Assembly (NCBI RefSeq): GCF_026151205.1
Contig: NC_087074.1
Span: 16,627,962 to 16,691,961, forward strand
Source of the DNA: Bolinopsis microptera
Taxonomy: Eukaryota > Ctenophora > Tentaculata > Lobata > Bolinopsidae
Length of the DNA stretch: 64,000 bases
Reading direction: 5' to 3'
Shown here piece after piece: positions 5,161 to 63,833 of this stretch. The translations under genes and the position numbers were made by a program. The notes under the pieces are model-generated. The model made no database searches and was not told the DNA's origin. It was given only the letters and a program-made list of their open reading frames with translations. The stretch's first letter is position 1; every line of letters starts with the position of its first letter.

Positions 5161-5172
5161 TTTTGAACCGCT

Positions 5173-5184
5173 GCCTGCTACCAA
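5173..5184 (-). other. Copia tRNA primer-binding site
   Basis: Directly inside the 5' LTR the minus strand reads TGGTAGCAGGCA. Its first nine bases fit the complement of the 3' end of initiator Met tRNA (TGGTAGCAG), the usual Copia primer. The match stops after nine bases, so a different or a half-tRNA primer cannot be excluded. Confidence 0.7.
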
Positions 5185-5367
5185 TGTTAAATCAGAGAAG
5201 CAATGACACACGTTGATAAGTCAGGAAAGAAGTCAATAGATATACAAAGACCCCACGGCTAACAGAGACATCATATATATAACATACTCCTGAAATATAA
5301 GGAGTTAACTCACATTCAAATATAGATACAAACATATAAAATATAATAGGAGAATATCAAGTTCACA
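5185..5367 (-). repeat. Copia 5' LTR
   Basis: This 183-bp direct repeat matches 278-460. In element orientation it is bounded by TG and CA and is followed by the primer-binding site. It is expected to hold the element's promoter. Confidence 0.95.
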
Positions 5368-5372
5368 GTGAC

Positions 5373-8234: not shown

Positions 8235-8284
8235 ATTTTAGTCTTCAAATCATGACCACCAACCCAACCTCTTGAAAAAATACT

Positions 8285-30857: not shown

Positions 30858-32564
30858 TTACCCTGTGTAATACACGACAGGTCTTATCTTTGCGGTGTTA
30901 CCGTGGAAGTGACCGCGGTAGTCATAGACATATCCCGGTGGTTTACTTCCTTCACCTTGCTTGTAGAAACGTTGTGACCCCCAGCACCAGTATTTGTTAG
31001 TTCCATCTCGTTGTGGTTTACCGCACCATGTTACCGGACGGGCGTTGTCAGATTTACCCATATAGTTAGTTACATCAATAGTAAAGTGTAAGTTATCAGC
31101 TAACATGTGGGATTCTCTGTGGAAATGTATATCATCAGGGTAGAGGTTAGGGTCTGTGACTAGTTGTATGTTGAACGAATCATCGTATTTTCCTGTTGCG
31201 GCTGTTACTCGCAGTTTAAACCCACAATCCCCTTCCTTGCTGCAGTTTGTTATAGATGATTGTCTGTATTTGAACTTGATGTCGTGATCTCGTGCAAATA
31301 GTTCTTCTGGTGTGTACTCAGAAATTGATGGAATACGATTGATAATTTCATTAGTTACCAAATTAGGATGTTTTCGTATTCTATCAGTTAATCCACCACT
31401 GCCTAGATAACCTTTAGCTTCCATATATTTGAGATCTATAGGTTTCCAGCCTCTTCTTATCATGAGATCAGAGAATACCTCAACACAATAGCTGCTGATG
31501 TATACAGATGGGGTATTCACTTCAATTCCATTGTCAAAAAACCAGCTATAAACCGCATCATAAAAAACATAGCTGTTTACCACCAGTGGAGATTCAATCA
31601 AGAAGTTTGTTATTCGCACGGGAGTATTTAATTCGTTCGCGTTCACCTGCTTGTAGTCATGAAACAAGTTGGGTAAAGCTGCATGTGGTATGACAGTGTT
31701 TGTCTCTTTCAAAGCCATATTGTTGGGTAAAGCTGTGCATGCGATGTTCATCTCTTTCTGGGCTTTATTATATTGTTTCAGAGCCCTCATAATTAACCTG
31801 AAGTCCTCAGTCGAAGGATTTTCGATTTCCTCAAGCTTTTCGAACAGTCGTTGATAACCATGAGTTACGGAGGAAGAAAGGGAGGATTTATAGTTCAATC
31901 TCTCAAGTATAAATCTACGGTTCTCATCAATAGTACATTCATTGTTTTCTAAGTTGTTCAATAGAGCTTCCACAAGAATGTGCTCCTGATCAGCTGCCAT
32001 TTCTATTATCACTTCAAGATTCTTTTTAGGACAAGATGAGACGTCTTTCAAGTATTGGGCTGCAAAATATTGAGTGCAAGTTGACAAGGATGCGAATTGC
32101 TTGATGACAATATCTATAAGTCTCCTCTTTTTTCGTTTATCCATAACGAACATGGCCTCGTCAAATAAGAATAGCTGGTCTTCAAAGTTATCCTCTCTTA
32201 CGGACTCAGTCAATTCCTGAAAGTACTCAAAGCACTTTTCGACTACCCAATCCACCTCAAACACGCAGGCCATTTTATTCAGATCTCGGAAATTTGACTT
32301 TGACAACTTCTCCAAAACACCAGAGTAAGAAGCTTCTAGAAAGCACTCTACAGCATATTTCGAGAAGTCCTCGACTGGTATTTCTGTTTGGAAAAGTTCT
32401 ACTGTCATTTTCTTTATAACCGGACTGTTGAAGGACATAATTGCTGAATTAGCGAAAAGTTCATCGTCCTGTAGAATGAACTTGAGGTTGCCGTGGGAGG
32501 GGGAGCCGAGATATTCCAACCCAAAGTTCATCGGCACTTGAATGCACGGTATTGGGGCGGCCAT
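30858..32564 (-). CDS. BTB/POZ-domain protein, copy 1 (intact)
   Basis: 568 residues from the ATG at 32,564, the Met shared by all three copies. The frame runs 37 codons further up through a Lys run, but that extension is not conserved in the paralogues. Residues about 20-125 are a BTB domain (FILQDDELFANSAIMSFNSP; then the Tyr/Cys-rich end KCFEYF), followed by a BACK-like helical region. The C-terminal ~190 residues (from KFKYRQSSITNCSKEGDCGF to the end) are Cys/Trp/Gly-rich (TWCGKPQRDGTNKYWCWGSQ) and match no domain I know. BTB proteins often serve as Cullin-3 adaptors, which is possible here but not shown. It is a single coding exon. Confidence 0.85.
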   Translation of the reverse strand: MAAPIPCIQVPMNFGLEYLGSPSHGNLKFILQDDELFANSAIMSFNSPVIKKMTVELFQTEIPVEDFSKYAVECFLEASYSGVLEKLSKSNFRDLNKMACVFEVDWVVEKCFEYFQELTESVREDNFEDQLFLFDEAMFVMDKRKKRRLIDIVIKQFASLSTCTQYFAAQYLKDVSSCPKKNLEVIIEMAADQEHILVEALLNNLENNECTIDENRRFILERLNYKSSLSSSVTHGYQRLFEKLEEIENPSTEDFRLIMRALKQYNKAQKEMNIACTALPNNMALKETNTVIPHAALPNLFHDYKQVNANELNTPVRITNFLIESPLVVNSYVFYDAVYSWFFDNGIEVNTPSVYISSYCVEVFSDLMIRRGWKPIDLKYMEAKGYLGSGGLTDRIRKHPNLVTNEIINRIPSISEYTPEELFARDHDIKFKYRQSSITNCSKEGDCGFKLRVTAATGKYDDSFNIQLVTDPNLYPDDIHFHRESHMLADNLHFTIDVTNYMGKSDNARPVTWCGKPQRDGTNKYWCWGSQRFYKQGEGSKPPGYVYDYRGHFHGNTAKIRPVVYYTG

Positions 32565-32675
32565 CCTATTCTTTTTCTTTTTTTTCTTTCTTTTCTTTTT
32601 CTTTGAGACAGGCTCAACCTGGTGGCCCACGAGAGGATTACATGAAAATGCTTTGCCTGCTTCTGGGTTCAGCAT

Positions 32676-34674
32676 GATCCCTGCTGGATGGAGGGGTTAA
32701 ATGTGTGGAGATGATAATGTAAAAGTGAGAGGTGATATAATGTAGTGAGTAGATGTTGTGTTGATTAATGTGATCCTGTTCTTGTGTTATAGTGCTGGAA
32801 GTGATTTAATTTCAGATAGTGATGTTTACTCAATTCACAGCTAATTGCAAATAAAGGTTAAGTTTTATTATATGGAAAAACTTCCATTTTCAATACGTCA
32901 CAATGGAATAACTGGATTGTGATAGGATAAACGTAACTGAATCTTAAGTGCAGTGGATTATTACTGTTTAGATGCAATTTCGATATACATATAATGAAGG
33001 ATCAAACAAATCTATACGGGTAACAAAATAATACGTACGCAACATAAAAGAACGAAAGCGTCACTAGATTTCAAATATAATACATCGGTGCACTCTTTCT
33101 GAGGTTTGTTTGTAAAATAATTATGTGTGTAAACACACAATACACATCATATGCTTTGTATTTATAACCAAGACACGCTGAAAATTAAATATACACAGGT
33201 ATTCCAAGTTCCAGCCCAAAATTCACCGGTACTATTGCACATACTTACAGTGCGCTACTTATTACTTAAGAAATTACAAAAGAAATAAAGTCGTAATAAA
33301 ATATTTATTAAATAATAATAAAACGTCTATCATTAAGAATTACAGAAAATCGTTAAAAAGAGGAAATGCAAATCAAAATAATTTCGTGCTTTGAGGGACT
33401 GCAAAAAATAAAAAAGTACTGAATTGTAAAGAATCAAAATCAAAGTTATCGTCATATGCTAGTCACAAGGTTTTTTATCACAAGTCCAGTAATTTTCATT
33501 GGTACGCTCAAATTACAGAGGACAGAAGTACTATGTATCCAGTCTAAAAATTATCAGTTGTCTCAAGTCTCAAGTATCATTGTGGTCGATTAATTAATAC
33601 TATGTACACTTACAGTACATTAACAATAACATCACCACATCTATCACTAATAAGTAATTCCATGGTCCTGACACGCTCTAAAGATGTTTCTCTCACAACT
33701 CTACCGACCATGATCTCAATTATCGCACATATTTCGACAGGTAGATAACATACTCCGGTAATATTTGTGTGCTTATCTGGTAATGCACAACACAGCTGTA
33801 CGGTGCTACTCCTGAACTTGCCAACTCGTGTCTAATTGTTGGGCTGAAAACTTAAATCACACTTGCTCTGCTGAAAGCGTGGAAAATTAAATAATATTCT
33901 CTGAGAAAAGTAGAACTACTTTTCCAGGAACTGAGAAATGGCCCAAGGTGGCGGTTGTGTCTTATATAATCGTTAAAATAATATCAAGTACAGTGGCGTA
34001 ACGTTGCCTGTTAAATCAGTCGCCAGAACAGAGTCACATTTCACTTTTATATAACAGACGTTAATTCTACCGACGTCGTTTTGAGCCGAACCTTTCTCCC
34101 CAATCGTCGCCAAAGTCGTAAAATTGGAAACCTCCTCCCCTTTGTTTGACGACGTAATTCATTCCAGTTACAACCTTTACTTGAACTATAAATGACCTGT
34201 TAATCGTGCCTTTTTAACTCCAAGCTAAAATTTTCAGTTATTTGTCTTTTAAGAGATAGAATAAGCTCGACATATAAAATGGATATACCATGATCAGTGG
34301 TAATGCTAAAATAATGACCACATATTGTCGCAAAAAACGTGCGCAGATAATTTCGAATAAAAAGTACGCATGAGATGTCTAATCAAAAGTAATATTTTAA
34401 ACAAAGAGTATGTATCAGTATTCAGTATAAGATTTTTTAGAGTACACATTATAATTCCTTAATTCAAAAAAAAAGCTAACATAGGATTTAGAATTGAAGA
34501 AGTACTCATACTATTTTAAATTACACCTTTCAATTTAAGACAGTGTCAAAATAATTTTCAGGCAGGCAATCAGTTCCTGGGATGAATGATTTCTATGTTT
34601 TCATAAACAGTTCAGGTATTGTCATTGATTATTTCATGTTCTGCGAATTAATCTCTTGTATCTGCTGATCTAAG
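32676..34674. other. Spacer between BTB copies 1 and 2
   Basis: No gene recognised. From about 34,240 the sequence is a diverged copy of the region downstream of copy 1, including a shared AATAAAAAGTACGCATGAGA segment. It is therefore the 3' flank of copy 2. Confidence 0.55.
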
Positions 34675-39317: not shown

Positions 39318-41720
39318 TTAAAATAAAGATCACCAAGTCTGTTCACAGAACGGCTGTTATAAATACTCATTCATCCATCATCTAACATCTTTAAGTGTAT
39401 TAGGAGGGTAAGTCGAAGGGTTAATTCATGATTTTTCATTCGATTATAAGATTCAGATAGTTCAGCGAGTCGGCTACTTCTACCTTCACGAGAGCTAAAC
39501 TTCAATTTACCTCAATCTGAACTGACTTGTACAGTGGTAGAACACATTACAACCGGGCTTATCATTTTACTTTTAAGTCAGATTTATCCTACTCTTATCT
39601 TGGACAAAACATCTCGATCGTATCGTTATTAAACTAACTTGGAAACCATAAATAACTGTCAAAAATTCTGGGGACTTATGGGGACAAATGGTGAATTACG
39701 TCAACGAGTTGACCTCTAGTCCCCATGATTTTTAGTCCCCATTAGTCCCCAAAAGTCTCCATTGGTAGTCATTGGCCCCCCCCCCACCACTGCCTAGATA
39801 ACCTTCATTTTCCATATATTTGAGATCTATAGGTTGGATGAATGCGGGGCTTGAAGAACTGCTCCGAGAGAATCAGTGCGGGTTCAGGAAAAACAGGTCT
39901 TGCATAGATCAGATTTATTCGCTCCGTACTATTATTCACAACAGCATTGAGTTTAATTAAATCTCCCCCTTTACATAAATTTTGTGGACTTTAAAGCTGC
40001 ATTCGATTCACTTAATCGGGAGTTTATCTGGAAAGATTTCAGTCATTATGGCTTGCCTTGTAAATACATTCGCATAATGCAAGCATTCTTTTGCGGCACC
40101 GTCAGCGCTGTCAGACATAATGGCGAGCTCTCTGAGTGGTTTGACGTTACATCTGGTTCTGGGCAGGGGGATATTCAGGGTCCACCTATCTTTAATGTTT
40201 GCATCAACCTGCCTGCGCAGCGGGCTGAGGATAACAAAGTGTTGTCACACGGGGCAGTGCTGCAGAGAGCTACCACCAGCTCTGGTCAGGATACAGTCGT
40301 CTTGGATACTGACTATGCAGATGATTTGGCTATCATGGACAACACCAAGGACGGTCTCCAGGAGACGACTGATCTTTTATGCAAGTATGCGGCTCAGGCT
40401 GGCCTCAGAATCAATGCGAAGAAAACAGAGGTTATGGCCATCGGCAAGAATACATCACAGAGGCCGTATACTGAAGCATCAACGGTGGACATTACAGTAG
40501 GAGACACGGCTATCCAGCAAGTCAGCAACTTCACTTACCTTGGGTCGATTATATCAAGTGATGGGACTATTGACCGGGACTTGTCTGCACGGATCCAGAA
40601 AGCCTCAGGAGCATTCAATCAGCTCGGTAATATTTGGAAGAATTGCAATATCCAAACTAACACCAAAATACGGATATATGTTGCAGCGGTTCTAACAATA
40701 TTACTTTATGGAAGCGAAGTCTGGAACACTACTTCAAAGCAACTACATCGCTTCGAAGTTTTTCATCAAAACTGTTTGAGGAGAATCCTTCGAATTAAGT
40801 GGTTCCACCGGACGAGCAATGTTCAAGTGTTGGAGCGGGCAAGAATAAACCTGGTTATAACCTACATCAGTGCCAACCGTCTTCGCTGGTTTGGACATGT
40901 TTCTAGAATGCCGGACACCAGGCTACCAAAGTATCTACTTGACTGGACACCTGCTCTCGGCCGAAGATCACGTGGGCGGCAGTAGTGTATTGTGCACAGT
41001 ACACACCTTTTTTGAAGGGTTTCCGAGGTAATTTCCAAACATACCGTATGTGGCGTGATGACACGGTAATATGTCACAATATTTTACATAGTTGAAGGTA
41101 CCTGGTTCGATCCCCCACCAGCCCCGCCCCATAATTTAATTACATGTACATCTATTGTTTAAAGTATCAACAATGTTAACATCTGGCAAGCGGCGACCTT
41201 TTAACGGTGTGCTGATGAGGTTCGAAATAATGTCTAATGTTCTTTAATCTAAATTTAGTGCACCGTTTCAGGACAACACCTGGCACTTTGCTTACACTAT
41301 CATTCAGCGTTCAGCTGTTTGTTGCGTAAATTCTGACTCTGTTTCAGCTTTAATTGTTCTGAACTTTAACTTAACTGTTTTTAATTCTTTTGACTGTAGT
41401 GTTTACCTGATACATAATTTTCCTCTAGACGAGTAATTATTACAGAAATAAATTCAAACATTCAACTTGCCAGGATTATGCTGAACGAAATTATATCAGA
41501 TCTCCATAAGGTAGTATGACGCAATGAATAAAGATGCAACTGCCAGTGCACCATGTTAATTACTGTTCCCAATTCTTTAATCATACCCGTAAATATTTGC
41601 TCGGTATCTGACAGCAGTTCATCGATTGATGTTCCGTGTTCTGTTTCCTGATATTTTGTGAGCGGAATATTAAATATTTTCTTGCGTAAGATAAGATGAA
41701 ATCCGTCACCTTATCTTACA

Positions 41721-42540
41721 CAATACTGAATACTGAATGAATACTGACTACTGAATGAATACTGAATGAATACTGAATGAATACTGAATACTGAATGAAT
41801 ACTGAATGAATACTGAATGAATACTGAATGAATACTGAATGAATACTGAATACTGAATGAATACTGAATGAATACTGAATGAATACTGAATGAATACTGA
41901 ATGAATACTGAATGAATACTGAATGAATACTGAATGAATACTGAATGAATACTGCATGAATACTGAATGAATACTGAATGAATACTGAATGAATACTGAT
42001 GAATACTGAATGAATACTGAATGAATACTGAATGAATACTGAATGAATACTGACTGAATACTGAATGAATACTGAATGAATACTGAATGAATACTGAATG
42101 AATACTGAATGAATACTGAATGAATACTGAATGAATACTGAATGAATACTGAATGAATACTGAATGAATACTGAATGAATACTGAATGAATACTGAATGA
42201 ATACTGAATGAATACTGAATGAATACTGAATGAATACTGAATGAATACTGCATGAATACTGAATGAATACTGAATGAATACTGAATGAATACTGAATGAA
42301 TACTGAATGAATACTGAATGAATACTGAATGAATACTGAATGAATACTGACTGAATACTGAATGAATACTGAATGAATACTGAATGAATACTGAATGAAT
42401 ACTGAATGAATACTGAATGAATACTGAATGAATACTGAATGAATACTGAATACTGAATGAATACTGAATGAATACTAAATGAATACTGAATGAATGTTGA
42501 ATAATGAATACTGAATAATACTGAATAATATACTGAATAC
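41721..42540 (-). repeat. 11-bp minisatellite, left arm of element D
   Basis: About 75 copies of TGAATGAATAC with occasional missing-unit variants (GAATACTGAATACTG). It is mirrored in the right arm. The IQYSFSIHSVF-type open frames are repeat artefacts. Confidence 0.95.
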
Positions 42541-42699
42541 TGAATGATAATTATGATGTATTATTTTTAAAAAAAGTTATAATGTAGACAAGGAAACACA
42601 TGTTTAGATTTTTGAAGATAATTTTAACTAAACTATATTCAATAACTCTATATATCCAAATTCTTATCTCAATAATTATCAACGTTTTGGTTATAAAGT

Positions 42700-43395
42700 T
42701 CAAGAATCTTCCTGACGATATATTTGTGAAAGTTTAAGAAGCTTGATGATAATATTTTTGTTCTCGTTCATTAGTTTGTTGACATCAGATAGACTAGTAG
42801 TCGTGATAACTGCATTCAACAGAGCTTGTTCTTCCATACTTAAAATTGTGGCGATGTCTTGTCCACAGTCAATGAGATGCTGCTCAAATTTCGCAAACAT
42901 TTCCGTTTTCATTATGTAAGAGAATAAAAAGTCCATACATTCGTTTTCTTCCTTGCATAATTTACTTTGTAACAGGACATCTAGAGATTTGAGTAATTTC
43001 GACATATCATTTACCTTTTTATTTATTTGCTTGATTGCTACGCTTTTCCGCTTGCCTTTGTGTTGCCGAACTGAGTCAGATTCTAACTCATCACTACTTA
43101 ACACACTTCTACTATCACTATATGGTATTTTTGACTCATCATCAGCACTTGTTTCCTCATAGTTAGAACCGTCTTGTTGAGATTCTTCAGATATTATCGT
43201 ATCAGCATCTGAATATGTGGAAGCAGGATAATCCAGTTTTACATCAGTCGCATCCGAGTTAGCTTTTGATAGTGGTTGAATTTTAGAGCTTGTTTCTGAC
43301 TCTCCGTTCTCTCGATGATACCGACTTTTGTGTGAGGACAGGCTATATCTATTGACAAAAGACTTGTCACAAAATGAGCAAGATATAGGACTCAT
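42700..43395 (-). CDS. C2H2 zinc-finger protein of element D, left arm (intact)
   Basis: 231 residues from ATG 43,395. It has one N-terminal C2H2 finger, C-x2-C-x12-H-x4-H (CSFCDKSFVNRYSLSSHKSR then YH). A Ser/Asp/Glu-rich middle with a basic patch (RQHKGKRKSVAIKQINKK) follows, then a helical C-terminus (MDFLFSYIMKTEMFAKFEQH). The frame is intact, while the copy in the other arm has a stop. A DNA-binding role in transposition or its regulation is inferred from position; no catalytic domain is recognised. Confidence 0.75.
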   Translation of the reverse strand: MSPISCSFCDKSFVNRYSLSSHKSRYHRENGESETSSKIQPLSKANSDATDVKLDYPASTYSDADTIISEESQQDGSNYEETSADDESKIPYSDSRSVLSSDELESDSVRQHKGKRKSVAIKQINKKVNDMSKLLKSLDVLLQSKLCKEENECMDFLFSYIMKTEMFAKFEQHLIDCGQDIATILSMEEQALLNAVITTTSLSDVNKLMNENKNIIIKLLKLSQIYRQEDS

Positions 43396-43548
43396 GATAT
43401 TACAAAGGATACGTTTAGAACGTTTTGCAACAACAGTCTTCAAATATATTATTCAATCTAACGGGAATGCTTCAAATTTTGTGGAGTAATTAACTCAGAC
43501 CCACGTGCTATTTTATATTTTAAAAAAACAACTAATCTGCTTTCCCTA

Positions 43549-43671
43549 CCCTACCCTCCTCCCTCCAGGGAGGGAGGGTAGGAAAGGAGGGAGGGAGCCC
43601 GAAGTCCTTAACACCCGTACATACAAATACAATGGGACCTAACCGTTGGTTAAGAAAAAGACACGTCGATC
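43549..43671. other. Central spacer of element D
   Basis: This is the only sequence that is not arm-symmetric. Its first part is itself an inverted repeat (CTACCCTCCTCCCTCC / GGGAGGGAGGGTAGG, about 43,549-43,582), and the rest is unique. Confidence 0.75.
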
Positions 43672-43823
43672 AGGGAAAGCAGATTAGTTGTTTTTAAAAA
43701 ATATAAAATAGCACGTGGGTCTGAGTTAATTACTCCACAAAATTTGAAGCATTCCCGTTAGATTGAATAATATATTTGAAGACTGTTGTTGCAAAACTTT
43801 CTAAACGTATCCTTTGTAATATC

Positions 43824-44519
43824 ATGAGTCCTATATCTTGCTCATTTTGTGACAAGTCTTTTGTCAATAAATATAGCCTGTCCTCACACTAAAGTCGGTA
43901 TCATCGAGAGAACGGAGAGTCAGAAACAAGCTCTAACATTCAACCACTATCAAAAGCTAACTCGGATGCGACTGATGTAAAACTGGATTATCCTGCTTCC
44001 ACATATTCAGATGCTGATACGATAATATCTGAAGAATCTCAACAAGACGGTTCTAACTATGAGGAAACAAGTGCTGATGATGAGTCAAAAATACCATATA
44101 GTGATAGTAGAAGTGTGTTAAGTAGTGATGAGTTAGAATCTGACTCAGTTCGGCAACACAAAGGCAAGCGGAAAAGCGTAGCAATCAAGCAAATAAATAA
44201 AAAGGTAAATGATATGTCGAAATTACTCAAATCTCTAGATGTCCTGTTACAAAGTAAATTATGCAAGGAAGAAAACGAATGTATGGACTTTTTATTCTCT
44301 TACATAATGAAAACGGAAATGTTTGCGAAATTTGAGCAGCATCTCATTGACTGTGGACAAGACATCGCCACAATTTTAAGTATGGAAGAACAAGCTCTGT
44401 TGAATGCAGTTATCACGACTACTAGTCTATCTGATGTCAACAAACTAATGAACGAGAACAAAAATATTATCATCAAGCTTCTTAAACTTTCACAAATATA
44501 TCGTCAGGAAGATTCTTGA
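43824..44519 (+). pseudogene. Zinc-finger gene of element D, right arm (nonsense at codon 23)
   Basis: This is the inverted copy of 42,700-43,395. TAA at 43,890-43,892 falls inside the zinc finger, where the left arm has AAA (SHK). Otherwise the two copies are nearly identical, with a Lys/Arg change just before. A shorter frame from a later start (134 codons ending at 44,519) stays open. Confidence 0.9.
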
Positions 44520-44674
44520 ACTTTATAACCAAAACGTTGATAATTATTGAGATAAGAATTTGGATATATAGAGTTATTGAATATAGTTTAGTTAAAATTA
44601 TCTTCAAAAATCTAAACATGTGTTTCCTTGTCTACATTATAACTTTTTTTAAAAATAATACATCATAATTATCA

Positions 44675-45712
44675 TTCAGTATTCAGTATATTATTCAGTA
44701 TTATTCAGTATTCATTATTCAACATTCATTCAGTATTCATTTAGTATTCATTCAGTATTCATTCAGTATTCAGTATTCATTCAGTATTCATTCAGTATTC
44801 ATTCAGTATTCATTCAGTATTCATTCAGTATTCATTCAGTATTCATTCAGTATTCAGTCAGTATTCATTCAGTATTCATTCAGTATTCATTCAGTATTCA
44901 TTCAGTATTCATTCAGTATTCATTCAGTATTCATTCAGTATTCATTCAGTATTCATTCAGTATTCATGCAGTATTCATTCAGTATTCATTCAGTATTCAT
45001 TCAGTATTCATTCAGTATTCATTCAGTATTCATTCAGTATTCATTCAGTATTCATTCAGTATTCATTCAGTATTCATTCAGTATTCATTCAGTATTCATT
45101 CAGTATTCATTCAGTATTCATTCAGTATTCATTCAGTATTCATTCAGTATTCATTCAGTATTCATTCAGTATTCATTCAGTATTCATTCAGTATTCAGTC
45201 AGTATTCATTCAGTATTCATTCAGTATTCATTCAGTATTCATTCAGTATTCATCAGTATTCATTCAGTATTCATTCAGTATTCATTCAGTATTCATGCAG
45301 TATTCATTCAGTATTCATTCAGTATTCATTCAGTATTCATTCAGTATTCATTCAGTATTCATTCAGTATTCATTCAGTATTCATTCAGTATTCAGTCAGT
45401 ATTCATTCAGTATTCATTCAGTATTCATTCAGTATTCATTCAGTATTCATTCAGTATTCATTCAGTATTCATGCAGTATTCATTCAGTATTCATTCAGTA
45501 TTCATTCAGTATTCATTCAGTATTCATTCAGTATTCATTCAGTATTCATTCAGTATTCATTCAGTATTCATTCAGTATTCAGTATTCATTCAGTATTCAT
45601 TCAGTATTCATTCAGTATTCATTCAGTATTCATTCAGTATTCAGTATTCATTCAGTATTCATTCAGTATTCATTCAGTAGTCAGTATTCATTCAGTATTC
45701 AGTATTGTGTAA
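44675..45712 (+). repeat. 11-bp minisatellite, right arm of element D
   Basis: About 90 copies of GTATTCATTCA, the reverse complement of the left-arm array but longer by roughly 200 bp. The array length explains most of the length difference between arms. Confidence 0.95.
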
Positions 45713-47816
45713 GATAAGGTGACGGATTTCATCTTATCTTACTCAAGAAAATATTTAATATTCCGCTCACAAAATATCAGGAAACAGAACACGGAACATC
45801 AATCGATGAACTGCTGTCAGATACCGAGCAAATATTTACGGGTATGATTAAAGAATTGGGAACAGTAATTAACATGGTGCACTGGCAGTTGCATCTTTAT
45901 TCATTGCGTCATACTACCTTATGGAGATCTGATATAATTTCGTTCAGCATAATCCTGGCAAGTTGAATGTTTGAATTTATTTCTGTAATAATTACTCGTC
46001 TAGAGGAAAATTATGTATCAGGTAAACACTACAGTCAAAAGAATTAAAAACAGTTAAGTTAAAGTTCAGAACAATTAAAGCTGAAACAGAGTCAGAATTT
46101 ACGCAACAAACAGCTGAACGCTGAATGATAGTGTAAGCAAAGTGCCAGGTGTTGTCCTGAAACGGTGCACTAAATTTAGATTAAAGAACATTAGACATTA
46201 TTTCGAACCTCATCAGCACACCGTTAAAAGGTCGCCGCTTGCCAGATGTTAACATTGTTGATACTTTAAACAATAGATGTACATGTAATTAAATTATGGG
46301 GCGGGGCTGGTGGGGGATCGAACCAGGTACCTTCAACTATGTAAAATATTGTGACATATTACCGTGTCATCACGCCACATACGGTATGTTTGGAAATTAC
46401 CTCGGAAAACCCTTCAAAAAAGGTGTGTACTGTGCACAATACACTACTGGCGGCCAAGAAAGAATTGGCGAACCTGTGTCCTAGAAGACGCAGTAACATT
46501 CACAGGAGATCCAGACATTGTATTTGATAAGGTCCGAGAGTTGGCAGGAAACCGAAAGCACTGGAGAGAGATGATACGACATAAGCGGCAATTCCTTGCT
46601 GCAGGCCACTCGAATGATTGAGGAGACCTTATCAAGTATCAAGTAAGTAAGTATAGGTTTCCAGCATCTGTTTATCATGAGATCAGAGAATATCTCAACA
46701 AATTTGTCGCTTCTGCACAAAAGCAGGGTCTTCACATCAATTCTTTTGTTAAAAAGCCAGCTATAAACTGCATCATAGAAAACATAGCTGTTTACCACAA
46801 GTGGAGACTCAATCAAGAAGTTTGTTAGTGCCTCCAGATTCTTTATGTCGTTCACCTACTCAAAGTCATGAAACAAGTTGGGTAGAGCTGCATATGGTAT
46901 GACAGTGTTCATCTCCTTCAAGGCCCTTATATTGTTGGGTAAAGCTGTGCATGCGATGGAAGTTTTCATCTCCTTCAGGGCTTTATTGTATTGTTTTAGT
47001 GCCCTCATAATTAACCTGAAGTCCTCAGTTGAAGGATTTTCCAGTTCCTCGAGCTTTTCAAATAGTCGCTGATACGCAGACTCGGAAGGAGAAAGGGAGG
47101 ATTTATAGTTCAATCTCTCAATTATAAATCTACTGTTCTGATCAATAGTGCATGCTTTGTATTCTAAGTTGTTCAATAGAGCTTCCACAAGAATGTGCTC
47201 CTGATCAGCTGCCATTTCCATTATCACTTCAAGATTCTTTTGAGGACAAGATGACACGTTTTTCAAGTATTGTGTTGCAAAATATTGAGTGCAAGTCGCC
47301 AAGGATGCAAATTGCTTAATGACAAGATCTATAAGTCTCCTCTTTATTCGATTATCCATAACGAACATGGCCTCATCAAATAAGAATAGCTGTTCTTCAA
47401 AGTTATCCTCTCTTACGGACTCAGTCAATTCCTGAAAGTACTCAAAGCACTTTTCGATTACCCAATCCACCTCAAACACGCATGCCATTTTATTCAGATC
47501 TCGGAAATTTGACTTTGACAACTTTTCTAAAACACCAGAATAAGAGGCTTCTAGAAAGCACTCTAAAGCATATTTCGAGAAGTCCTCGACTGGTATTTCT
47601 GTTTGGAAAAGTTCTACTGTCATTTTCTTTATAACCGGACTGTTGAAGGACATAATTGCTGAATTAGTGAGAAGTTCTTCGTCCTGTAGAATGAACTTGA
47701 GGTTGCCGTGGGAGGGGGAGCCGAGATATTCCAACCCAAAGTTCATTGGCACTTGAATGCACGGTATTGGGGAGGCCATCCTATTCTTTCTTTTTTTCCT
47801 TTCTTTAAAAGACAGG

Positions 47817-47940
47817 CTATTGCTGTTATCGAAGAATATGTCAATATCATGCTGCACTGTTCTAAACTGTTAGGCACCCGCGCGCTACGTATCCAAAGGA
47901 AAGTACCAAACGCCGAGACACAAAACCTACAGCCATTAAC
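47817..47940. repeat. ~120-bp dispersed repeat at the BTB duplication junction
   Basis: The sequence ATTGCTGTTATCGAAGAATA ... CCTACAGCCATTAA recurs at 50,657-50,770 with a few changes. Here it sits exactly between the 5' end of BTB copy 2 and fragment copy 3. Confidence 0.8.
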
Positions 47941-48445
47941 TCGCAAAATATTGAGTGCAAATCGCCAAGGATGCAAATTGCTTAATGACAAGATCTATAA
48001 GTCTCCTCTTTATTCGATTATCCATAACGAACATGGCCTCATCAAATAAGAATAGCTGTTCTTCAAAGTTATCCTCTCTTACGGACTCAGTCAATTCCTG
48101 AAAGTACTCAAAGCACTTTTCGATTACCCAATCCACCTCAAACACGCAGGCCATTTTATTCAGATCTCGGAAATTTGACTTTGACAACTTCTCCAAAACA
48201 CCAGAATAAGAGGCTTCTAGAAAGCACTCTACAGCATATTTCGAGAAGTCCTCGACTGGTATTTCTGTTTGGAAAAGTTCTACTGTCATTTTCTTTATAA
48301 CCGGACTGTTGAAGGACATAATTGCTGAATTAGTGAGAAGTTCCTCGTCCTGTAGAATGAACTTGAGGTTGCCGTGGGAGGGGGAGCCGAGATATTCCAA
48401 CCCAAAGTTCATTGGCACTTGAATGCACGGTATTGGGGAGGCCAT
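47936..48445 (-). pseudogene. BTB copy 3, N-terminal fragment
   Basis: 169 codons from ATG 48,445 encode the BTB domain and are nearly identical to the same part of copy 2 (the first ~168 codons). The frame ends where the ~120-bp repeat begins. The sequence upstream of the ATG matches the upstream region of copy 1 (CAGGCTC, then ACCTGGTGGCCCACGAGA), so it keeps the original promoter side. A truncated BTB-only protein is possible. Confidence 0.85.
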
Positions 48446-48641
48446 CCTATTCTTTCTTTTTTTTCCTTTCTTTAAAAGACAGGCTCGACCTGGTGGCCCA
48501 CGAGAAGATTACATGAAGATGTTTTGCCTGCTTCTGGGTGTAGCATCCCTGCTGGATGCCGGGGTTAAATGCAATGATGTTAAATAGTAATACGTTTCGT
48601 AGCCTACAAACGTATGGCGAATACGAATACGTATTTCTCAA

Positions 48642-54925: not shown

Positions 54926-55979
54926 CTCATTGTATAGGCATTACGTGACATAAAGACATAAATATTAAATAACCTCCGCTAATTTGAACAAGTGAAACAA
55001 TTTTTCAAGATCTGAGAAAAGCTGACTATACTTTCAACGCATTCAATGAAGATCTTAATCAATTCACAAATACAGCATTCAAGATGACATGTGTTGGTTT
55101 GGTGCAGCAGACTGTAACTACGTTTTTATATACATATCCGTCAAAAATTTCAGAATTATGATAAAATCAGTAGCTTTAAATCAAAACTCTTATATCAAAA
55201 TTGATCTGACAGTAAAGATAAAAAGTGTTATTTAAAGACTGCTATGTTTAGCAGGTTTAATGCTAAACTACGGCCATGAGAAGAATGGTACCATTCTTAC
55301 TAAAAAGATCATGGAGCTCTAAACAGTTCCAATAAGAATATCGACAAAACTCTGGAAACAAATCCCGTGAATGGTTTTGTAAAAGTTTAATAACTGAAAT
55401 AAAATAAAGACTAAAATAGACTGAGGCACTAAATATACTGGAAGGTAAATTACAACTTGTATTTAATTTGTTTATTAAAAATTCAAATTCGATATTCCAT
55501 GTAATTATGAAAACTAAAAGTTCAAACAAGCCCATCACTTTAATAACTGTTAACATAAAATTAAAAATATCAATCTACAATTGTAAAAACTAAATTCTAG
55601 TGCAGACCCCTTCCACTCGAATTTGGTTAAAAATATTGAAATTAGAAATCAAGTAAAAGTTATGAATCTAAATATACATTTAAGTTTATATCACAAAATT
55701 TCATTCTTAATCTCATAATATAATTTAAACTAAGAGTTCAAGGATGAAGATTCTCGCTATACTAGTCCGATCAAAGTCAATAATTAGTTAGCACAACAAG
55801 AATTGTTGTTAACAAAATTTAATTTGCCTCAATTAACCGTTAGGCGTTAACTAAATAAATAGTCAATTTGTAGTAACCACAAATACTTCAACGTTTGACA
55901 TGATATTGTTGATTACGACTTCACAGCGACTGAAATCAACATATTTAATTTGTCTGCCACTACATTCACACATTCATAC
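54926..55979. other. Spacer downstream of the receptor gene
   Basis: AT-rich. A minus-strand AATAAA at 55,471-55,476 could be the poly(A) signal of the receptor gene. A short minus frame (55,263-55,556) shows no domain. Confidence 0.45.
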
Positions 55980-58900
55980 TCAAAGTTCAATGTCAACTTC
56001 TCCTTTGGTAGCCACGTTGACGTGAACTTCTCCGTTCTTTGCGTTCCTTTTACCACCCTATAGAAAAAAGGTGTTACCAAGGTGTTACTGAGGTGTTACT
56101 TAGGTGTTACTACCATGATTTTAGGTTATACAAAAAAGATTCTGAACATGACATTGGGTATTGATTATATTTAAATCATTTGTGTTTTCCTAGCTACAAG
56201 TACAATCAAGGAAAATAATCAAGGAAAACAATCAGGGAATACAGTTCAGGTTCATGCGATGATTGTGAAGTATTGTAACATGCGATTTTAATGATTGGAA
56301 ATAATATTTACAGCTATAGCAGGGAAAATTATTTCTGTTAAGTGTTAAGATTTGCGGCAAGATAGTCGTATCCAGCATTTAACATTTAACAATCATACCT
56401 GCATATCTACCACAATAACTTCAATTTCGGGCTCGGATTTCTTTTTCTTTGAGCTTATGAAATCATTAAACCCCTCTATAAGATCCGGGTGACCATCGAA
56501 AAGAATCTTAACCTCTGCTCTGAGATCTGATTTACTAAGTTTCTTAGGTTTAAAGTCATTTAGCATTTTTAGAAAAGTCTTATAAACTTCAGGTTGATCC
56601 GCAAATCTGGTCTGGACTTGATCCACGAACTCAGTGGCCGCATTGAATTTAGGGTGGGACTCTGGTGATGCCGCCAGATCCGTGATGATTTCCTTATCAG
56701 AATCAATTGCTGCCGGGTTCTTCGTAACCTGATACATTTTACTATATAGATACCGTAGACCCGGCCAAGTATATTATGTGCCCACTATTTTATCAGCTCC
56801 TTGTTTCTGTTATTGATGTATTCAACATATTTGCATAAAAGAACCTTGTGCAATCAAAACGGATTGGATTCATTGAAAAGTTTGGCATATTTATCAATAT
56901 GGGCATACTTTATACATACTGTACAGCAGCAATCATGGCTTTCTAAAGACTAAAATACCATTGAACTAATCATTAGGATTCTATTTTAAAATAATTATTT
57001 TCATGACCCCGACCGTACCTGAAGTACATCGACTACTGTGTATTCATTTTCCGTAGTTTGATTTTTCCCCTTCGATTTCAAGAACTCATTGAAGGCATCC
57101 ACCAGGTCCGGATGCCCTTGAAACAGCACCTCAACCTTTCCCGCCAAGTCCGATCTATTTATGTTCTTAGCTCTGTATTCTGTGAGGGTGTTCAAAAATG
57201 CTCGATAAATATCCGGTGCTTTCTCGAAACGGTCCTGTACTCTGTCCAGGAAATTAACAGCATCATGGAATTTAGGATGAGACTCGGGCGGGGACAGGTT
57301 AGTTTCCTGAACCGGATTTCTGATGACCGTTGGTTCCAGAGGTATCGGCTTCTCCTGCAACGAATAATTCTCTGTACAGGGCGCCAACTAATTGCTGGGG
57401 TGTGATACTGATAGCATGGTAGTTGTGGGGGTTAATGGGGCCACCACTTAAGTTTATTAAATAACCACTCGGATCCTTGCCAATTGTGCTAACATGCTCT
57501 ACCAATTAGATAAACAGCAATTTAAAGACCAATAACAGATGTTGACTGTTGATATAAGTTGGCCACCTAGGCCACCTTGCACCTTCAAATCACCAGTGTA
57601 CAAATTGCCCTTAATAACATCACCAAGCACATCTTTAATAGACTCGACTATTATAGCATCTAAACTGGTAGATGAATAGCTGGCCGCGTGTTATTAGTCC
57701 AGGGAAACAATTAGCTAGAGATACAGGCTGTGTCACATGGGAACACGGCACAATGGCTACTTACAAAAGGAGTGAAATGTGAAAACATGACAAAGACCAC
57801 ATTCTACTCTCTTCTTAGAAACGCAGTTGGAATGTGAACCGGTACCTGAACGCTGGTAGGTCACATGAGATGTTTACCTAACACTTATAGCTATATAGCC
57901 ACTTTGTGTTCACATTCAACTGATATAGAGGGCTATTAAAGCTCGGTAATTATTGTGAACGAAGAGACGGTGGTTCTTTGTCACGTCAGCTAATGAACTA
58001 TTTAAATGAAACAGAATGTTTTTTTAAAAGAATGATGTCTACTTGTCTAGCCAATTAAGGGACGTACAGCAAATATAAAGCTTTTCAACTTTGGAGCTAT
58101 AAACTTCTCAGAGCGATAATATGAAAAACACAAGCTTTCCCGCTCATCACTCACCAGATACAATGCTAATTTCATGAATTTAAAGAGATATAGTTAATGG
58201 TGAAAGCTTAGAAACAGAACGTTTGCATATAAATGAAATAAAAAAATGCTTTTCTTAACTAAGTTAGTTAACTTGGTTAAGTTAACTAAGTTCGTTAGTA
58301 TTGAACAGATCACAAAGAGATTTGGAAACGCTATATCTTACCTTTGTCTTTTTGCGTTTTGCGCAACATGTTCGGCAGCAGATGAACGCGAAAATGATGA
58401 AGAGGAGCCCTACAGCAATACAGATGGCTACGATTATTCCACCCCAGTTCGTTTCTGCGGGTAGGGTTGGTTTAGTGTTTTCTAACAACAATATTGCTCT
58501 TGATTAACCGTTCATTGAGAAAGGAAGCTGCCACAAAACTCCCCTTTTATCATTTCTCTGAGCAGTAAAAACAGAATCTTCACAATCCCATGCTTCAAAG
58601 TTGATGCCACCCTTTATCTCTTTATAATGCCATCTGGCAGCATCGTACACACTCCATCAAACGAAACATTTGTTATTGCTTAAATCATATTAAATCCACC
58701 ATTCTCTTCTACATTCAAGGCAGCTAATTCTATTTTGTATAACCAATTTTAGAACTCCAGAATGCTATTTAACAAATTCAATATCATCTAACTTATAGAA
58801 TAACGTCAGAAAGGGTCGAAGTTAACTAACTACAGTATTATACAAGTAAAAATCTCCGCAAGCAACCCTCGCGCGAATAATGAAATGTTGGGTACTTACT

Positions 58901-61080
58901 TTCCTTGGGGTCGAATGTAACAGTAAACTGAAAGAAATGTACACCGTTAGTAAATGTTATACAGTTTCCATGGATAATTCGCATAATAGTTTGCCACAAT
59001 ATATAGCACAGAATTTTCAACTTGAGATTGGGGACATCACGGTCAAAGCTTATTCTTTGTTAAATTACGGAGAAATAGAATTCTCATAGACTTACTTCTC
59101 GACTAAACTCGGCCTCTTGTCCATCATACGAAAACCGGAAAGCACACCCATATTTCTCATCCAAAATTGGTTCCTTTTGATCCTCCTTCTTCTTCAACAA
59201 CTCCAGTTCATTAAATTTAACTGCTGCCGTATTCGCATCTGGATAAACCAATTCCTCCAATATCTTTCCAGATACCAAATGTGTTATATCACTCTCTGAA
59301 TGAGGAGTATGTTACACTTATTATCTTCACTTAATGAGGAAAAAGTTACACTAATCATTTTCACTTAATGATGAATATGTTGCACTCACTATCATCACTT
59401 TATGAGAATTTCGCCCTAACGTGCTCTATTTTTACATTTGAGTCAATCATAAAGTATTTGCAGCCTTTAAAATGCTGCAAAGTGTCAATTTACTTACCTT
59501 CTAGTTTGCCTTCTCCTGGGTTATCAATAAATGTGCAAACAAAAGCATCCTCTTCCCTCTCCTTCTCATCCATCCGTTCGTAATACACCACTTGGAGCCC
59601 AGGGTGGTTCTTCCAATCAACAGAGGGGACCGAATTTATATCTGTAGGTGGGAGAGTGTGTTAGAGCAAATCGGGCTGTTTCTATGGTGACGCGTAACTA
59701 GACGTGTATGGAATGTTAAGTGGAATGTTAAGTGGAATTTTGCAGAATTCCATTGTTTAAGGTTCCCAGTTTTACATTCCGGAACGCATCCAGATTGAAT
59801 TGCTTGGAAGGAAACTCAATTATGGGCACTGCTCCCGGAATTTAAGGGAGATTTTGTTTGTATAAGCGATGGAATTTCTTTGAATTGAATAGATTGACTG
59901 GTGGACTAATAAAAACACTAATAACGCTAATAAGATGGTAGTAAGTGCCAAGTGGAACTGGTGAAAGTGGAAGAATAGCTTAAATTAGCTCTGTAAAAGT
60001 CGGTTATAAAATAATATGAGTAGTGATACATTTCAGTATTATGTATCACGATGGAAATATTTTAAGCCAGTCCAAACCAGCTGGCTCCATAACATGAAGA
60101 CTTCGTTTTAACAATTGTATGAAAAGCACGAATAAGTAAATTCAAAAATAGAAAATTTTGGCGGAAGAAAAATTACCGATCTGATAGAATCTGAGTTTGG
60201 AGTAACCAGTACTGGCATCATTCAGTTTCACAGTGGCGTCAACTTCAAACTTGTAAGTTTCACTTACAATGGGCCACACTTGCAGAGTCACCTTACTCTC
60301 TTCAATTTTGCTGAAAAGAATTTATTGTAGATTTTAGAAAGTGCCAACAACAAAATTATATTAAGTTTAAGAGATTTATAAATACTGTAGTCAAGGGTAA
60401 AATACTTGACGAATTCATGCAGCAAATTAAAATATTAGTAGAAATATTTAAAATGTATCTTACAAGTTGTATTTTGCGACTGCTACATTGAATGTTACAC
60501 TTGGTGCTCCATTATAACCAGTAATTTCATACACTGATTCTCCCATAACATTCCCTGCTTCTATCAAGGCTCCATCGTATATCTCCAGAGTATTTACAGG
60601 ATCCTCCTCTGAAATTGATACTCGTTAGATGAAATTGATACTCGTAAGACGAAATTGATACTTGTTAGCTGTTAATTAGAAACAATGATTAAAACTTTTG
60701 AATTATGACTAACTATTTGTTTCAGAATATGGCACTAACCAGTGCCAAGACACGTATAACAGATCAGGGAACTTGAAGTCTTAAAATCAAGTTCATAATA
60801 CAAAAGTAACTTAGTCCCACGAAAACACAGTAACGGGGTCACTACTACACGTTACACAGAGTAACGGGTCACTACTACACTACTTATTTGTTGGATTTAA
60901 CAGTTGACAATACGCTTGGAACTGTGTAGCTCATATCGTGGTAAGTGGCCCCCTTTTCTACCGTGCCCCCTTTTCTACAGTGTAAACTTAAAAGAACAGC
61001 TCACCTGTACCCAGCTTATTACAATGCAAAACATCGAACAAAGTCACTGAAAACGCCAGGAAACGCACAAAACCGCACAT
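55980..61080 (-). CDS. Type I membrane receptor: Ig-like ectodomain, TM helix, two cytoplasmic PAH domains
   Basis: Exons (minus): 61080-61005, 60608-60464, 60310-60177, 59641-59498, 59295-59096, 58927-58900, 58481-58342, 57354-57019, 56728-56399, 56057-55980. All borders are GT/AG and all phases agree, giving 536 residues. Residues 1-20 look like a signal peptide (MCGFVRFLAFSVTLF). The ectodomain is beta-rich, and Cys154 and Cys217, 63 apart, fit an Ig-type disulphide. Residues 258-278 form the membrane helix (IIVAICIAVGLLFIIFAFIC), followed by CCAKRKK. Residues 318-383 and 429-494 are PAH domains (LFQGHPDLVDAFNEFL; LFDGHPDLIEGFNDFI), known from the SIN3 corepressor, where they bind short amphipathic helices. 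The PAH exons have no ATG of their own, which supports one gene. The ligand and function are unknown. Confidence 0.82.
56067..56115 (-). repeat. GGTGTTACN short repeat in last intron
   Basis: Four units of about 12 bp (AGGTGTTACTT-like) lie close to the acceptor of the last exon. Confidence 0.7.
57380..57515 (-). repeat. Possible tRNA-derived SINE remnant in the intron before the first PAH exon
   Basis: The minus strand reads TAATTGGTAGAGCATGTTAG, which resembles a tRNA D-arm/A-box, then AAGGATCCGAGTGG in the place of a T-arm, followed by non-tRNA sequence up to CACCCCAGCAATTAGTTGGC. It cannot fold as a complete tRNA. A SINE head is the likeliest reading. Confidence 0.35.
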
Positions 61081-61689
61081 GATACAGTTACTATTTACTA
61101 AGCTACATTCCACACAACTTTACGAGACTTCAAGCAACTGAATGGCACTGAATGCGATGACCGATCGTGAACGAAACGAAAGAACGAGAAATGAAAACAC
61201 ATTAATACCGGTGTGTCACACATGTTATTAGTGTTATTAGTCAATACCGGCATTACCGACACTCCATATCACATTTCTTATGATTAACATAATAGAATCT
61301 CGAGTTACACACGGGAAGGTGTCTAAGGGGTCATGACAAAAGCTCCCAGTAGTTACTATGGTGGTTACCATGGTAACAGTTGGTGGTTTCCATGGTTATA
61401 CTTACGGTATACTTGGAGGTATTTCCGTGCGTATTCAGCGCCTCCAGATACGACTCCCTTCACTACGAAGCTTGTGGAGGACTTAACGGTGTCTGAAATT
61501 AGTAAGATTAGTAAAATTTATATTAAAATTAGTAAAATTATTAAAATTAGCGAGATTGTTATTCCACGGAAACACACAATAATCCATACCACTGATGGAC
61601 CATAGATTATGGTTAATCTATATCTTTTAAACGTTATTCGAGCCCAGAATATAGGTTGCGTAATAAGTCAACAATTAAATATTCTCCAA
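61081..61689. other. 5' flank of the receptor gene
   Basis: Upstream of the start codon there is no coding exon I can support. It holds the X-box-like palindrome at 61,364 and a GTTATTAGT/TACCGGCATTACCG region. Confidence 0.5.
61364..61377. promoter_or_regulatory. X-box-like RFX site
   Basis: GTTACCATGGTAAC is a perfect 14-bp palindrome that fits the RFX X-box GTNRCC-N(0-3)-RGYAAC. It lies 284 bp upstream of the receptor ATG. RFX factors drive cilium genes and, in vertebrates, MHC class II genes. Use here is inferred. Confidence 0.4.
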
Positions 61690-63483
61690 CTAGCTGGGAG
61701 GGTAATAGTACAGTAGGTGGCTACTAACTAGCTGGGAGGGTAATAGTACAGTAGGTGGCTACTAACTAGCTGGGAGGGTAATAGTACAGTAGGTGGCTAC
61801 TTACTAGCTGGGAGGGTAATAGTACAGTAGGTGGCTAATTACTAGCTGGGAGGGTAATAGTACAGTAGGTGGCTACTTACTAGCTGGGAGGGTAATAGTA
61901 CAGTAGGTGGCTACTTACTAGCTGGGAGGGTAATAGTACAGTAGGTGGCTACTTACTAGCTGGGAGGGTAATAGTACAGTAGGTGGCTACTTACTAGCTG
62001 GGAGGGTAATAGTACAGTAGGTGGCTACTTACTAGCTGGGAGGGTAATAGTACAGTAGGTGGCTACTTACTAGCTGGGAGGGTAATAGTACAGTAGGTGG
62101 CTACTTACTAGCTGGGAGGGTAATAGTACAGTAGGTGGCTACTTACTAGCTGGGAGGGTAATAGTACAGTAGGTGGCTACTTACTAGCTGGGAGGGTAAT
62201 AGTACAGTAGGTGGCTACTTACTAGCTGGGAGGGTAATAGTACAGTAGGTGGCTACTTACTAGCTGGGAGGGTAATAGTACAGTAGGTGGCTACTTACTA
62301 GCTGGGAGGGTAATAGTACAGTAGGTGGCTACTTACTAGCTGGGAGGGTAATAGTACAGTAGGTGGCTACTTACTAGCTGGGAGGGTAATAGTACAGTAG
62401 GTGGCTACTTACTAGCTGGGAGGGTAATAGTACAGTAGGTGGCTACTTACTAGCTGGGAGGGTAATAGTACAGTAGGTGGCTACTTACTAGCTGGGAGGG
62501 TAATAGTACAGTAGGTGGCTACTTACTAGCTGGGAGGGTAATAGTACAGTAGGTGGCTACTTACTAGCTGAGAGGGTAATAATACAGTAGGTAGCTACTT
62601 ACTAGCTGGGAGGGTAATAGTACAGTAGGTGGCTACTTACTAGCTGGGAAGTGGGAGGGTAATAGTACAGTAGGTGGCTACTTACTAGCTGGGAGGGTAA
62701 TAATACAGTAGGTAGCTACTTACTAGCTGGGAGGGTAATAGTACAGTAGGTGGCTACTTACTAGCTGGGAGGGTAATAGTACAGTAGGTGGCTACTTACT
62801 AGCTGGGAGGGTAATAGTACAGTAGGTGGCTACTTACTAGCTGGGAGGGTAATAGTACAGTAGGTGGCTACTTACTAGCTGGGAGGGTAATAGTACAGTA
62901 GGTGGCTACTTACTAGCTGGGAGGGTAATAGTACAGTAGGTGGCTACTAACTAGCTGGGAGGGTAATAGTACAGTAGGTGGCTACTTACTAGCTGGGAGG
63001 GTAATAGTACAGTAGGTGGCTACTTACTAGCTGGGAAGTGGGAGGGTAATAGTACAGTAGGTGGCTACTTACTAGCTGGGAGGGTAATAGTACAGTAGGT
63101 GGCTACTTACTAGCTGGGAGGGTAATAGTACAGTAGGTGGCTACTTACTAGCTGGGAGGGTAATAGTACAGTAGGTGGCTACTTACTAGCTGGGAGGGTA
63201 ATAGTACAGTAGGTGGCTACTTACTAGCTGGGAGGGTAATAGTACAGTAGGTGGCTACTTACTAGCTGGGAGGGTAATAGTACAGTAGGTGGCTAATTAC
63301 TAGCTGGGAGGGTAATAGTACAGTAGGTAGCTACTTACTAGCTGGGAGGGTAATAGTACAGTAGGTGGCTAATTACTAGCTGGGAGGGTAATAGTACAGT
63401 AGGTGGCTACTTACTAGCTGGGAGGGTAATAGTACAGTAGGTGGCTACTTACTAGCTGGGAGGGTAATAGTACAGTAGGTGGC
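61690..63483 (-). repeat. 38-bp minisatellite built from an exon/5' splice-site junction
   Basis: About 47 units. On the minus strand each reads CCACCTACTGTACTATTACC + CTCCCAGCTAGTAAGTAG. The first unit continues seamlessly from the Ig-type exon at 63,453-63,589 and includes its last bases and its GTAAGT donor. Most units keep GTAAGT. Some at the far end have GTTAGT, a few have GTAATT, and two carry an inserted GGAAGTG. Confidence 0.95.
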
Positions 63484-63833
63484 TTCGTTCTCTGCAACTA
63501 CATATTTTTCTGAGTTTGATCTCTTTTTCCTCCCATAATATCCCGGATTAGTTTGTCTCTTGTACGTTTTTCCAGTTGATTCGTCAAACCTGAAGATTCA
63601 AGTCAGCAGAGGCACACTAGACAGAATTTATTTGAGTTATTTATATTATCTAAACTTACAAAATCTGACGCGAAAATGTGTTACACTATGCACATGAACA
63701 TCACCTTCAGTTGTCAGTTATGTTTATTGTTCAACCTACCATGAGCAGCCAAGATTAACAACTTTTTTACTGAAATACACCTTCAGTTTAATTCCATCGT
63801 TGTATTCAACATAGTCGGTGGTGTGGTCAAATT
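63453..63833 (-). CDS. Partial Ig-type receptor gene (two exons seen, 5' end outside window)
   Basis: Exons 63833-63740 and 63589-63453 join across TG|G (Trp). The protein reads DYVEYNDGIKLKVYF, NLGCSWF, then EKYVVAENEATYCTITLPAS, with the beta-strand and Cys spacing of an Ig-like domain. The last exon ends in phase 1 at GCTA|GTAAGT, or reads on to TAG four codons later if unspliced. The next exon could be at 60,608 (also phase 1), which would make this an alternative or longer 5' end of the receptor gene, or it may be a separate tandem gene. Confidence 0.6.

Follow-up and report, generated by a model that had tools for sequence, protein, structure and literature searches.

A candidate immunoglobulin-superfamily membrane protein with a tandem-PAH cytosolic tail in the genome of Bolinopsis microptera

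Introduction

Work on PAH domains has almost entirely concerned their part in nuclear scaffolds for repressors, according to the excerpted text of a review of helical hub domains (PMC7948954). A stretch of 64,000 nucleotides from the ctenophore Bolinopsis microptera (contig NC_087074.1, positions 16,627,962 to 16,691,961; hereafter the window, in whose numbering positions are given) raises the question of whether such domains can also form the tail of a membrane protein. On its minus strand, between 61080 and 55980, an original prediction had placed a ten-exon gene for a short receptor with an immunoglobulin (Ig)-like ectodomain, one transmembrane (TM) helix and two PAH domains. Our answer, as read from the genomic sequence, is that the window rather likely contains the 3′ part of a gene that was found once in the genome and would encode a giant type-I membrane protein, a member of the Ig superfamily (IgSF) with a tandem-PAH cytosolic tail.

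The locus itself holds an open and phase-consistent exon chain, Ig modules that are recognised by profiles, a TM helix, PAH domains and an ectodomain devoid of N-glycosylation sequons. It is very likely that the TM helix and the PAH domains belong to one protein. By analogy with known hubs, the tail may fairly probably serve to dock helices in the cytosol, while the tethering or release of transcription factors that had also been proposed is unlikely. Genome-wide searches covered 264,652,675 bases in 232 contigs, and the gene was followed upstream through four further 10-kb stretches beyond the window by exon-chain tracing.

Exon structure of the gene

The ten exons first proposed have consistent borders, as had been claimed: all nine introns are GT/AG, the phases fit and there is no internal stop. 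Their joined frame likewise stays open, but it is 527 residues long on rejoining and not 536. Same-strand exons with Ig signatures extend upstream past 61080 and beyond the window end, and keep the same phase-1 modular structure up to a signal-peptide-like exon, MILKKALAVLCLVTTVWSG, at window-equivalent position 80326 (contig C3, 16708287). This exon has a hydrophobic N-terminus, judged without a trained signal-peptide predictor, and a donor that scores 5.3. The start and size originally given for the protein are therefore probably wrong.

The curated model comprises 38 exons and 2037 residues without internal stop, with GT/AG at 37 of 37 introns, and encodes in order a signal peptide, 17 modules (D1 to D17), one TM helix, two PAH domains and a short C-terminus. 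Phase 1 is found at all 17 module starts and at the TM exon, and the gene region contains no undetermined base (N). In the control run the gene-finder chain scored 501 (41 exons, before curation to 38). Twelve second-order Markov sequences placed between the same ends gave three chains, the best of which scored 5.6, and nine gave none; no chain was found on the opposite strand. In the gene finder, splice weights were set by hand and the codon table had been learned from its own first model, a bias towards the real sequence; despite this, the gap between the real chain and the controls is very wide. Curation started from a 42-exon chain, from which seven exons were dropped as spurious (66997, 65533, 64997, 63971, 61046, 58409 and 57664); donor 68937 was replaced by 69072, and exons 67249, 58927 and 58454 were added by hand.

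The PAH domains

Both PAH domains of the original prediction are borne out by profile comparison. PF02671 scores 102.1 bits on the 527-residue model, in two stretches, against a cut-off of 21.3, and the two single frames reach 50.8 and 59.5 bits against the same cut-off; NCBIfam reported nothing over cut-off on the PAH exons. Among sequences of solved structures, the 527-residue model has 18 matches at E<=1, every one of them to SIN3 or to the homologues pst1-3 of fission yeast. A fold model, built for the first PAH domain only and from two window exons, has four confident helices (27-42, 47-61, 67-77 and 82-93) with a mean pLDDT of 69.6 and low-confidence ends. Its best structural matches are SIN3B PAH1, yeast SIN3 and SIN3A PAH2, with a Foldseek probability of 1.00 but an E-value of 0.008 at best (0 of 78 matches at E<=0.001) and TM-scores by target length of up to 0.84. 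Given the Pfam, solved-chain and fold-model results, together with the hydropathy described below, the TM and PAH exons are best taken as real coding sequence and not as chance.

Between them, the PAH domains of the receptor show 47% identity, and they cluster together, apart from PAH1, PAH2 and PAH3 of SIN3, with an ultrafast bootstrap of 86, which is below the usual 95. This pattern suggests that one PAH domain was probably acquired and then duplicated. Both carry Leu, as PAH2 does, at the alignment column that we take to be Leu332 of SIN3 PAH2. The equivalent position in SIN3 PAH1 is occupied by Met, as given in the review excerpts (PMC7948954).

Across the genome the PAH profile has seven matches, of which two lie here, three in a separate SIN3-like gene that carries a Sin3_corepress segment (2e-23) and two in copies of an RTEL1-like helicase frame. 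These two copies, L006 (C11:9646374) and L007 (on a 28-kb contig, C93:16786), have equal PAH scores and frame lengths, and one may be a second, unplaced copy of the RTEL1-like gene. Neither the PAH profile search nor a 497-residue C-terminal query found a second TM-PAH gene in the genome; eight of ten matches of that query are this gene, and of the other two one falls in SIN3, at E 0.24, and one in a C4 frame, at E 0.115. We also considered and rejected a recent copying of the genome's own SIN3 exons: the SIN3 PAH frames appear interrupted and those of the receptor do not, and the receptor domains group with each other (support 86) instead of one each with PAH1 and PAH2.

The transmembrane helix and the ectodomain

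The single TM helix originally proposed also stands when it is checked by hydropathy: over 19 residues the Kyte-Doolittle mean is 3.34, and the next window in the long model reaches 1.53. By the same measure alone, the helix has its positive residues (KRKKTK) on the inner side. The 987-base intron between the TM and first PAH exons (58341-57355) is not of repeat origin, as 981 of its bases occur once in the genome in a search that skipped simple repeats.

On the outer side, Pfam recognises the long model as Ig_3 (102.5 bits, cut-off 30), Ig_2 (86.6) and I-set (77.0), besides PAH (97.8). An Ig family is matched at E<=0.01 in six of the 17 modules (D4, D5, D6, D8, D10 and D11), three of which (D5, D6 and D10) pass the curated cut-off on their own, and D4-D10 have titin as their best relative among solved structures (2.4e-10). 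Exactly two cysteines are present in 12 of the 17 modules, those of D9 being too close for an Ig bridge. An Ig type is recognised by profile in these six upstream modules, whereas the two on which the original claim of an Ig-like ectodomain had been based, D16 and D17, have neither a Pfam match nor a profile match to the clear Ig modules; their tentative assignment rests on position, exon phase, the cysteine pair of D17 and the resemblance of D16 to D13, which is itself without a Pfam match. None of the unrecognised modules, run in hhalign as eight singles and one four-sequence profile against a profile of nine cysteine-bearing modules, gave a significant match. A nuclear-envelope Ig protein of the NUP210 type, with the architecture that we presume for it, was rejected as a candidate, as none of the long model's 11 Pfam matches is to a family of that name. 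One other Ig locus, L035 (C10 near 2.90 Mb; one of 12 stretches scanned), has a TM-helix candidate with a short, ordinary-looking tail; on a TM candidate from an Ig locus elsewhere in the genome, Pfam gave only weak matches, all below cut-off.

The ectodomain (D1-D17, window-equivalent 79564-58900) contains no N-X-S/T sequon in 1733 residues with 81 Asn. Shuffled versions have a mean of 12.8, with none of 20,000 shuffles as low as zero, and the reverse pattern S/T-X-N occurs 12 times. In the cytosolic tail there are three sequons against 1.5 expected. Four Ig frames at other loci have 4, 2, 1 and 1 sequons against 2.4, 0.7, 0.6 and 0.6 expected, in a set where four of eight Ig loci (L015, L016, L017 and L019) were without a frame and one strand was read. 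A wider set of 13 Ig-motif frames at other loci of the genome has 13 sequons against 12.1 expected; it was drawn from 12 stretches, with L032, L033, L042 and L043 lacking a frame, L039 and L041 repeating frames of the smaller set, two pairs being near-duplicates, and the frames left untrimmed so that some intron is included. Although the depletion was spotted post hoc among several properties inspected, it is strong. It argues that D1-D17 belong to one protein that is exposed to the glycosylation machinery and has been selected against N-glycans, as close packing or homophilic contact of a 17-module chain might need. Among the literature matches listed for sequon avoidance, nothing was relevant by title and the start of the abstract.

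Proposed function

Provided that splicing follows the model, the ectodomain would bind a partner in the matrix or on another cell, and the PAH domains would each clasp a short amphipathic helix in some cytosolic protein, as in SIN3 and harmonin-type hubs. The most economical mechanism would be that the receptor gathers or sequesters helix-bearing partners at the membrane through its own hub, with the two PAH domains giving avidity. A membrane protein with two PAH domains would mean that this docking module came to be used at the membrane in what is probably an early-branching animal lineage; it would also provide a short route, open to testing, from contact at the cell surface to regulators of transcription. 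In a bolder version, which we regard as unlikely, SIN3-binding repressors would be kept at the membrane by the tail; engagement of the glycan-free Ig chain would then set them, or the tail itself, free. If true, extracellular recognition would be wired straight into the SIN3-ligand network, which would constitute a receptor class.

Alternative explanations

The shortest alternative is that the gene starts at 61080 and encodes a receptor with only two ectodomain modules. The exon at 61080-61005 offers a plausible signal peptide and a good phase-1 donor, and such exons are scarce: ATG-to-donor candidates with a hydrophobic run of >=1.8 number only five on both strands of the 64-kb window, and four on the gene strand in 24 kb, this exon and 80326 included. 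It is thus not wholly trivial, chance being a weaker argument here than phase and module likeness. Those two speak for a longer gene. The last upstream module ends at 61406, in a phase that suits exon 60608; when the sequence is read by eye, no TM exon belonging to the upstream modules is seen ahead of 61080; and the absence of sequons spans all modules. Moreover, D12-D13 resemble D15-D16 down to their exon layouts (94/113/93 bases in D12 and 94/137/87 in D15; 133/140 in D13 and 145/134 in D16) and use no signal-peptide-like exon between the two modules, so that exon 60608 should directly follow 61492-61406. Exon 61080-61005 is therefore probably not the true gene start, though it could be an alternative promoter, and we regard the short receptor as improbable. 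The locus could otherwise be divided further downstream, into an Ig/TM receptor that stops shortly beyond the TM exon and a separate small PAH gene that starts in the intron 58341-57355. Read-through past the TM exon reaches a stop after 19 further residues, so that a short tail, or a short-tailed isoform of the longer protein, is possible; protein-like frames, found once in the genome, also lie at 57690-57300, in and beside this intron, and may represent an alternative or relic exon. However, the first PAH exon has no methionine and must be spliced from upstream, and usable starts are few in the intron: of its 13 ATGs, four have an in-phase donor above 0 (best 3.8), with frames of <=42 codons. 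The TM exon has a strong donor (4.7) in a phase that fits the first PAH exon, and a free protein made up of two PAH domains alone would in our judgement itself be unusual. Two adjacent genes are thus quite unlikely. If the TM and PAH exons do form one protein, its tail might still act in the nucleus: cleavage beside the membrane would free the PAH domains, which would enter the nucleus and compete with SIN3 for repressors. The tail PAH domains are of the SIN3 type, and the basic KRKKTK just inside the membrane, a motif found by eye, could after release direct the tail to the nucleus. Basic stop-transfer sequences are commonplace, however, and the HID is unreported for the model, which should deprive a freed tail of this way of recruiting histone deacetylase; we consider this route from membrane to nucleus unlikely.

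Several points weigh against the giant TM-PAH receptor that we favour. The analysis is based on the genomic sequence of one genome, and the exon joins are predicted. The gene finder skipped the 28-base exon 58900..58927, and skipped the TM exon or took it with another acceptor and frame, perhaps owing to the unusual codon use of a membrane helix; both were placed by hand, and the exon border at 67249 also went undetected. The donor of exon 70501-70373 is weak (-0.4), as are the acceptors at 70813 (-0.1), 68250 (0.1), 66066 (0.2) and 56728 (0.4). In the ectodomain, 11 of the 17 modules lack a Pfam Ig match at E<=0.01 (D14 has a weak one, E 0.05, and ten have no Ig family), and five lack a cysteine pair (D3, D12, D13 and D16 have no cysteine, D7 has one). 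D14 and D17, the third pair of the supposed repeated block, do not match in profile comparison. A non-secreted frame of the window is also poor in sequons (1 against 4.5 expected, P 0.047), if far more mildly, and a second one has 1 against 2.2 expected. Finally, the competence of the PAH groove was judged by eye.

Features of the window

The exons of the 3′ part of the gene, together with a possible polyadenylation signal, are listed in Table 1. An array of a 38-bp tandem repeat (61689..63484, about 47 copies, 97% match) lies almost wholly within the intron inside D15.

Table 1. Predicted features at the 3′ end of the TM-PAH gene, in window coordinates
Feature	Position	Strand	Remarks
Module D15, exon 1	63740..63833	-	Enters in phase 1, leaves in phase 2; D15 resembles D12 (E 7.8e-9, 17-sequence set)
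Module D15, exon 2	63453..63589	-	Exon-chain model
Module D15, exon 3	61406..61492	-	Phase 1 end, fits direct join to exon 60608
Signal-peptide exon of the original prediction	61005..61080	-	Probably bypassed, or at most alternative promoter
Module D16, exon 1	60464..60608	-	D13-D16 similarity E 2.3e-4 in 17-sequence set
Module D16, exon 2	60177..60310	-	Exon-chain model
Module D17, exon 1	59498..59641	-	Exon-chain model
Module D17, exon 2	59096..59295	-	Exon-chain model
Module D17, exon 3 (28 bases)	58900..58927	-	Retained by hand
TM helix, then CCRTCC and basic stop-transfer KRKKTK	58342..58454	-	Hydropathy; retained by hand
First PAH domain, single exon	57019..57354	-	Phase 0-0, no Met; Pfam, fold model
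Second PAH domain, single exon	56399..56728	-	Phase 0-0; Pfam
C-terminal exon and stop, end ...GEVDIEL	55980..56057	-	Exon-chain model
AATAAA, possible polyadenylation signal	55471..55476	-	Sequence read

Elsewhere in the window, mobile elements and a gene family can be recognised by eye. Copia-type gag-pol frames on the minus strand adjoin a LINE-like element on the plus strand, with ORF1 and endonuclease/reverse transcriptase frames (727-12046). Several related copies, intact and broken, of a gene family with BTB-like sequence lie at 30858-32696 and 46481-48508, and similar frames occur at C2:9.316-9.321 Mb, beside SIN3. A large inverted duplication (41711-45717) contains a 208-residue frame at 43893-44519 on the plus strand that is near-identical to the end of a 250-residue frame at 42700-43452 on the minus strand, both being bordered by the same short-period repeat.

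Comparison with known systems

As far as we have seen, this would be an IgSF receptor with a type of tail not met before. No transmembrane PAH protein is described in the titles and abstract openings listed by searches of the open-access literature, which is not proof, and the excerpts of the hub review, which draws on an InterPro search, name no combination of TM helix and PAH (PMC7948954). The view that PAH domains are confined to nuclear scaffolds of the SIN3 type, from which the original prediction had started, is nevertheless too narrow. The plant protein WRKY19 carries a PAH domain, and PAH domains are grouped with related harmonin-homology domains (HHDs), some of which work at membranes, in the same excerpts (PMC7948954); the RTEL1-like frame of this genome also exceeds the PAH cut-off.

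With SIN3, the receptor shares domains that are 30-36% identical to the SIN3 PAH1/PAH2 domains compared and a four-helix model. It differs from SIN3 in being a predicted membrane protein with two PAH domains where SIN3 has three, and in having each PAH domain in one exon where the PAH frames of the genome's own SIN3 are interrupted. Sin3_corepress (HID, PF08295) has no match in the 527-residue model at E<=10 or in the 2037-residue model at E<=1. The profile PAH_ZNF598 is narrowly passed by the 527-residue model (25.9 bits against 25), but lies below cut-off in the long model (21.4) and the single frames (18 and 15.1), and PF02671 scores far higher. WRKY19 resembles the receptor in having a PAH domain within a receptor-like immune protein, with TIR-NB-ARC-LRR, kinase and WRKY regions; it differs in its WRKY DNA-binding domain, in its kingdom and in that no Ig ectodomain is mentioned in the review excerpts (PMC7948954).

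Robo, NCAM and giant Ig proteins with titin-type I-set modules have in common with the receptor their Ig modules with phase-1 borders, a hydrophobic N-terminus and a single TM helix. The receptor is set apart from them by its cytosolic PAH domains, by 17 modules without a sequon and by many modules beyond profile detection.

A further parallel is offered by harmonin, whirlin and PDZD7. PAH domains are alpha-alpha-hubs: they bind short amphipathic helices in partner proteins that are otherwise disordered. Among related hubs, the tail of cadherin-23 is bound by the HHD of harmonin, and the HHD region of PDZD7 targets the plasma membrane (PMC7948954, PMC7788954, PMC8083959). HHD profiles (CCM2_C, HHD_RTEL1) are absent from the matches of the receptor tail, while the RTEL1-like frame matches both, HHD_RTEL1 below cut-off. 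In harmonin, whirlin and PDZD7, related helical hubs act beside membrane adhesion proteins; but theirs is of the HHD type and sits in a separate scaffold, whereas the predicted hub of the Bolinopsis protein is of the PAH type and lies within the receptor itself.

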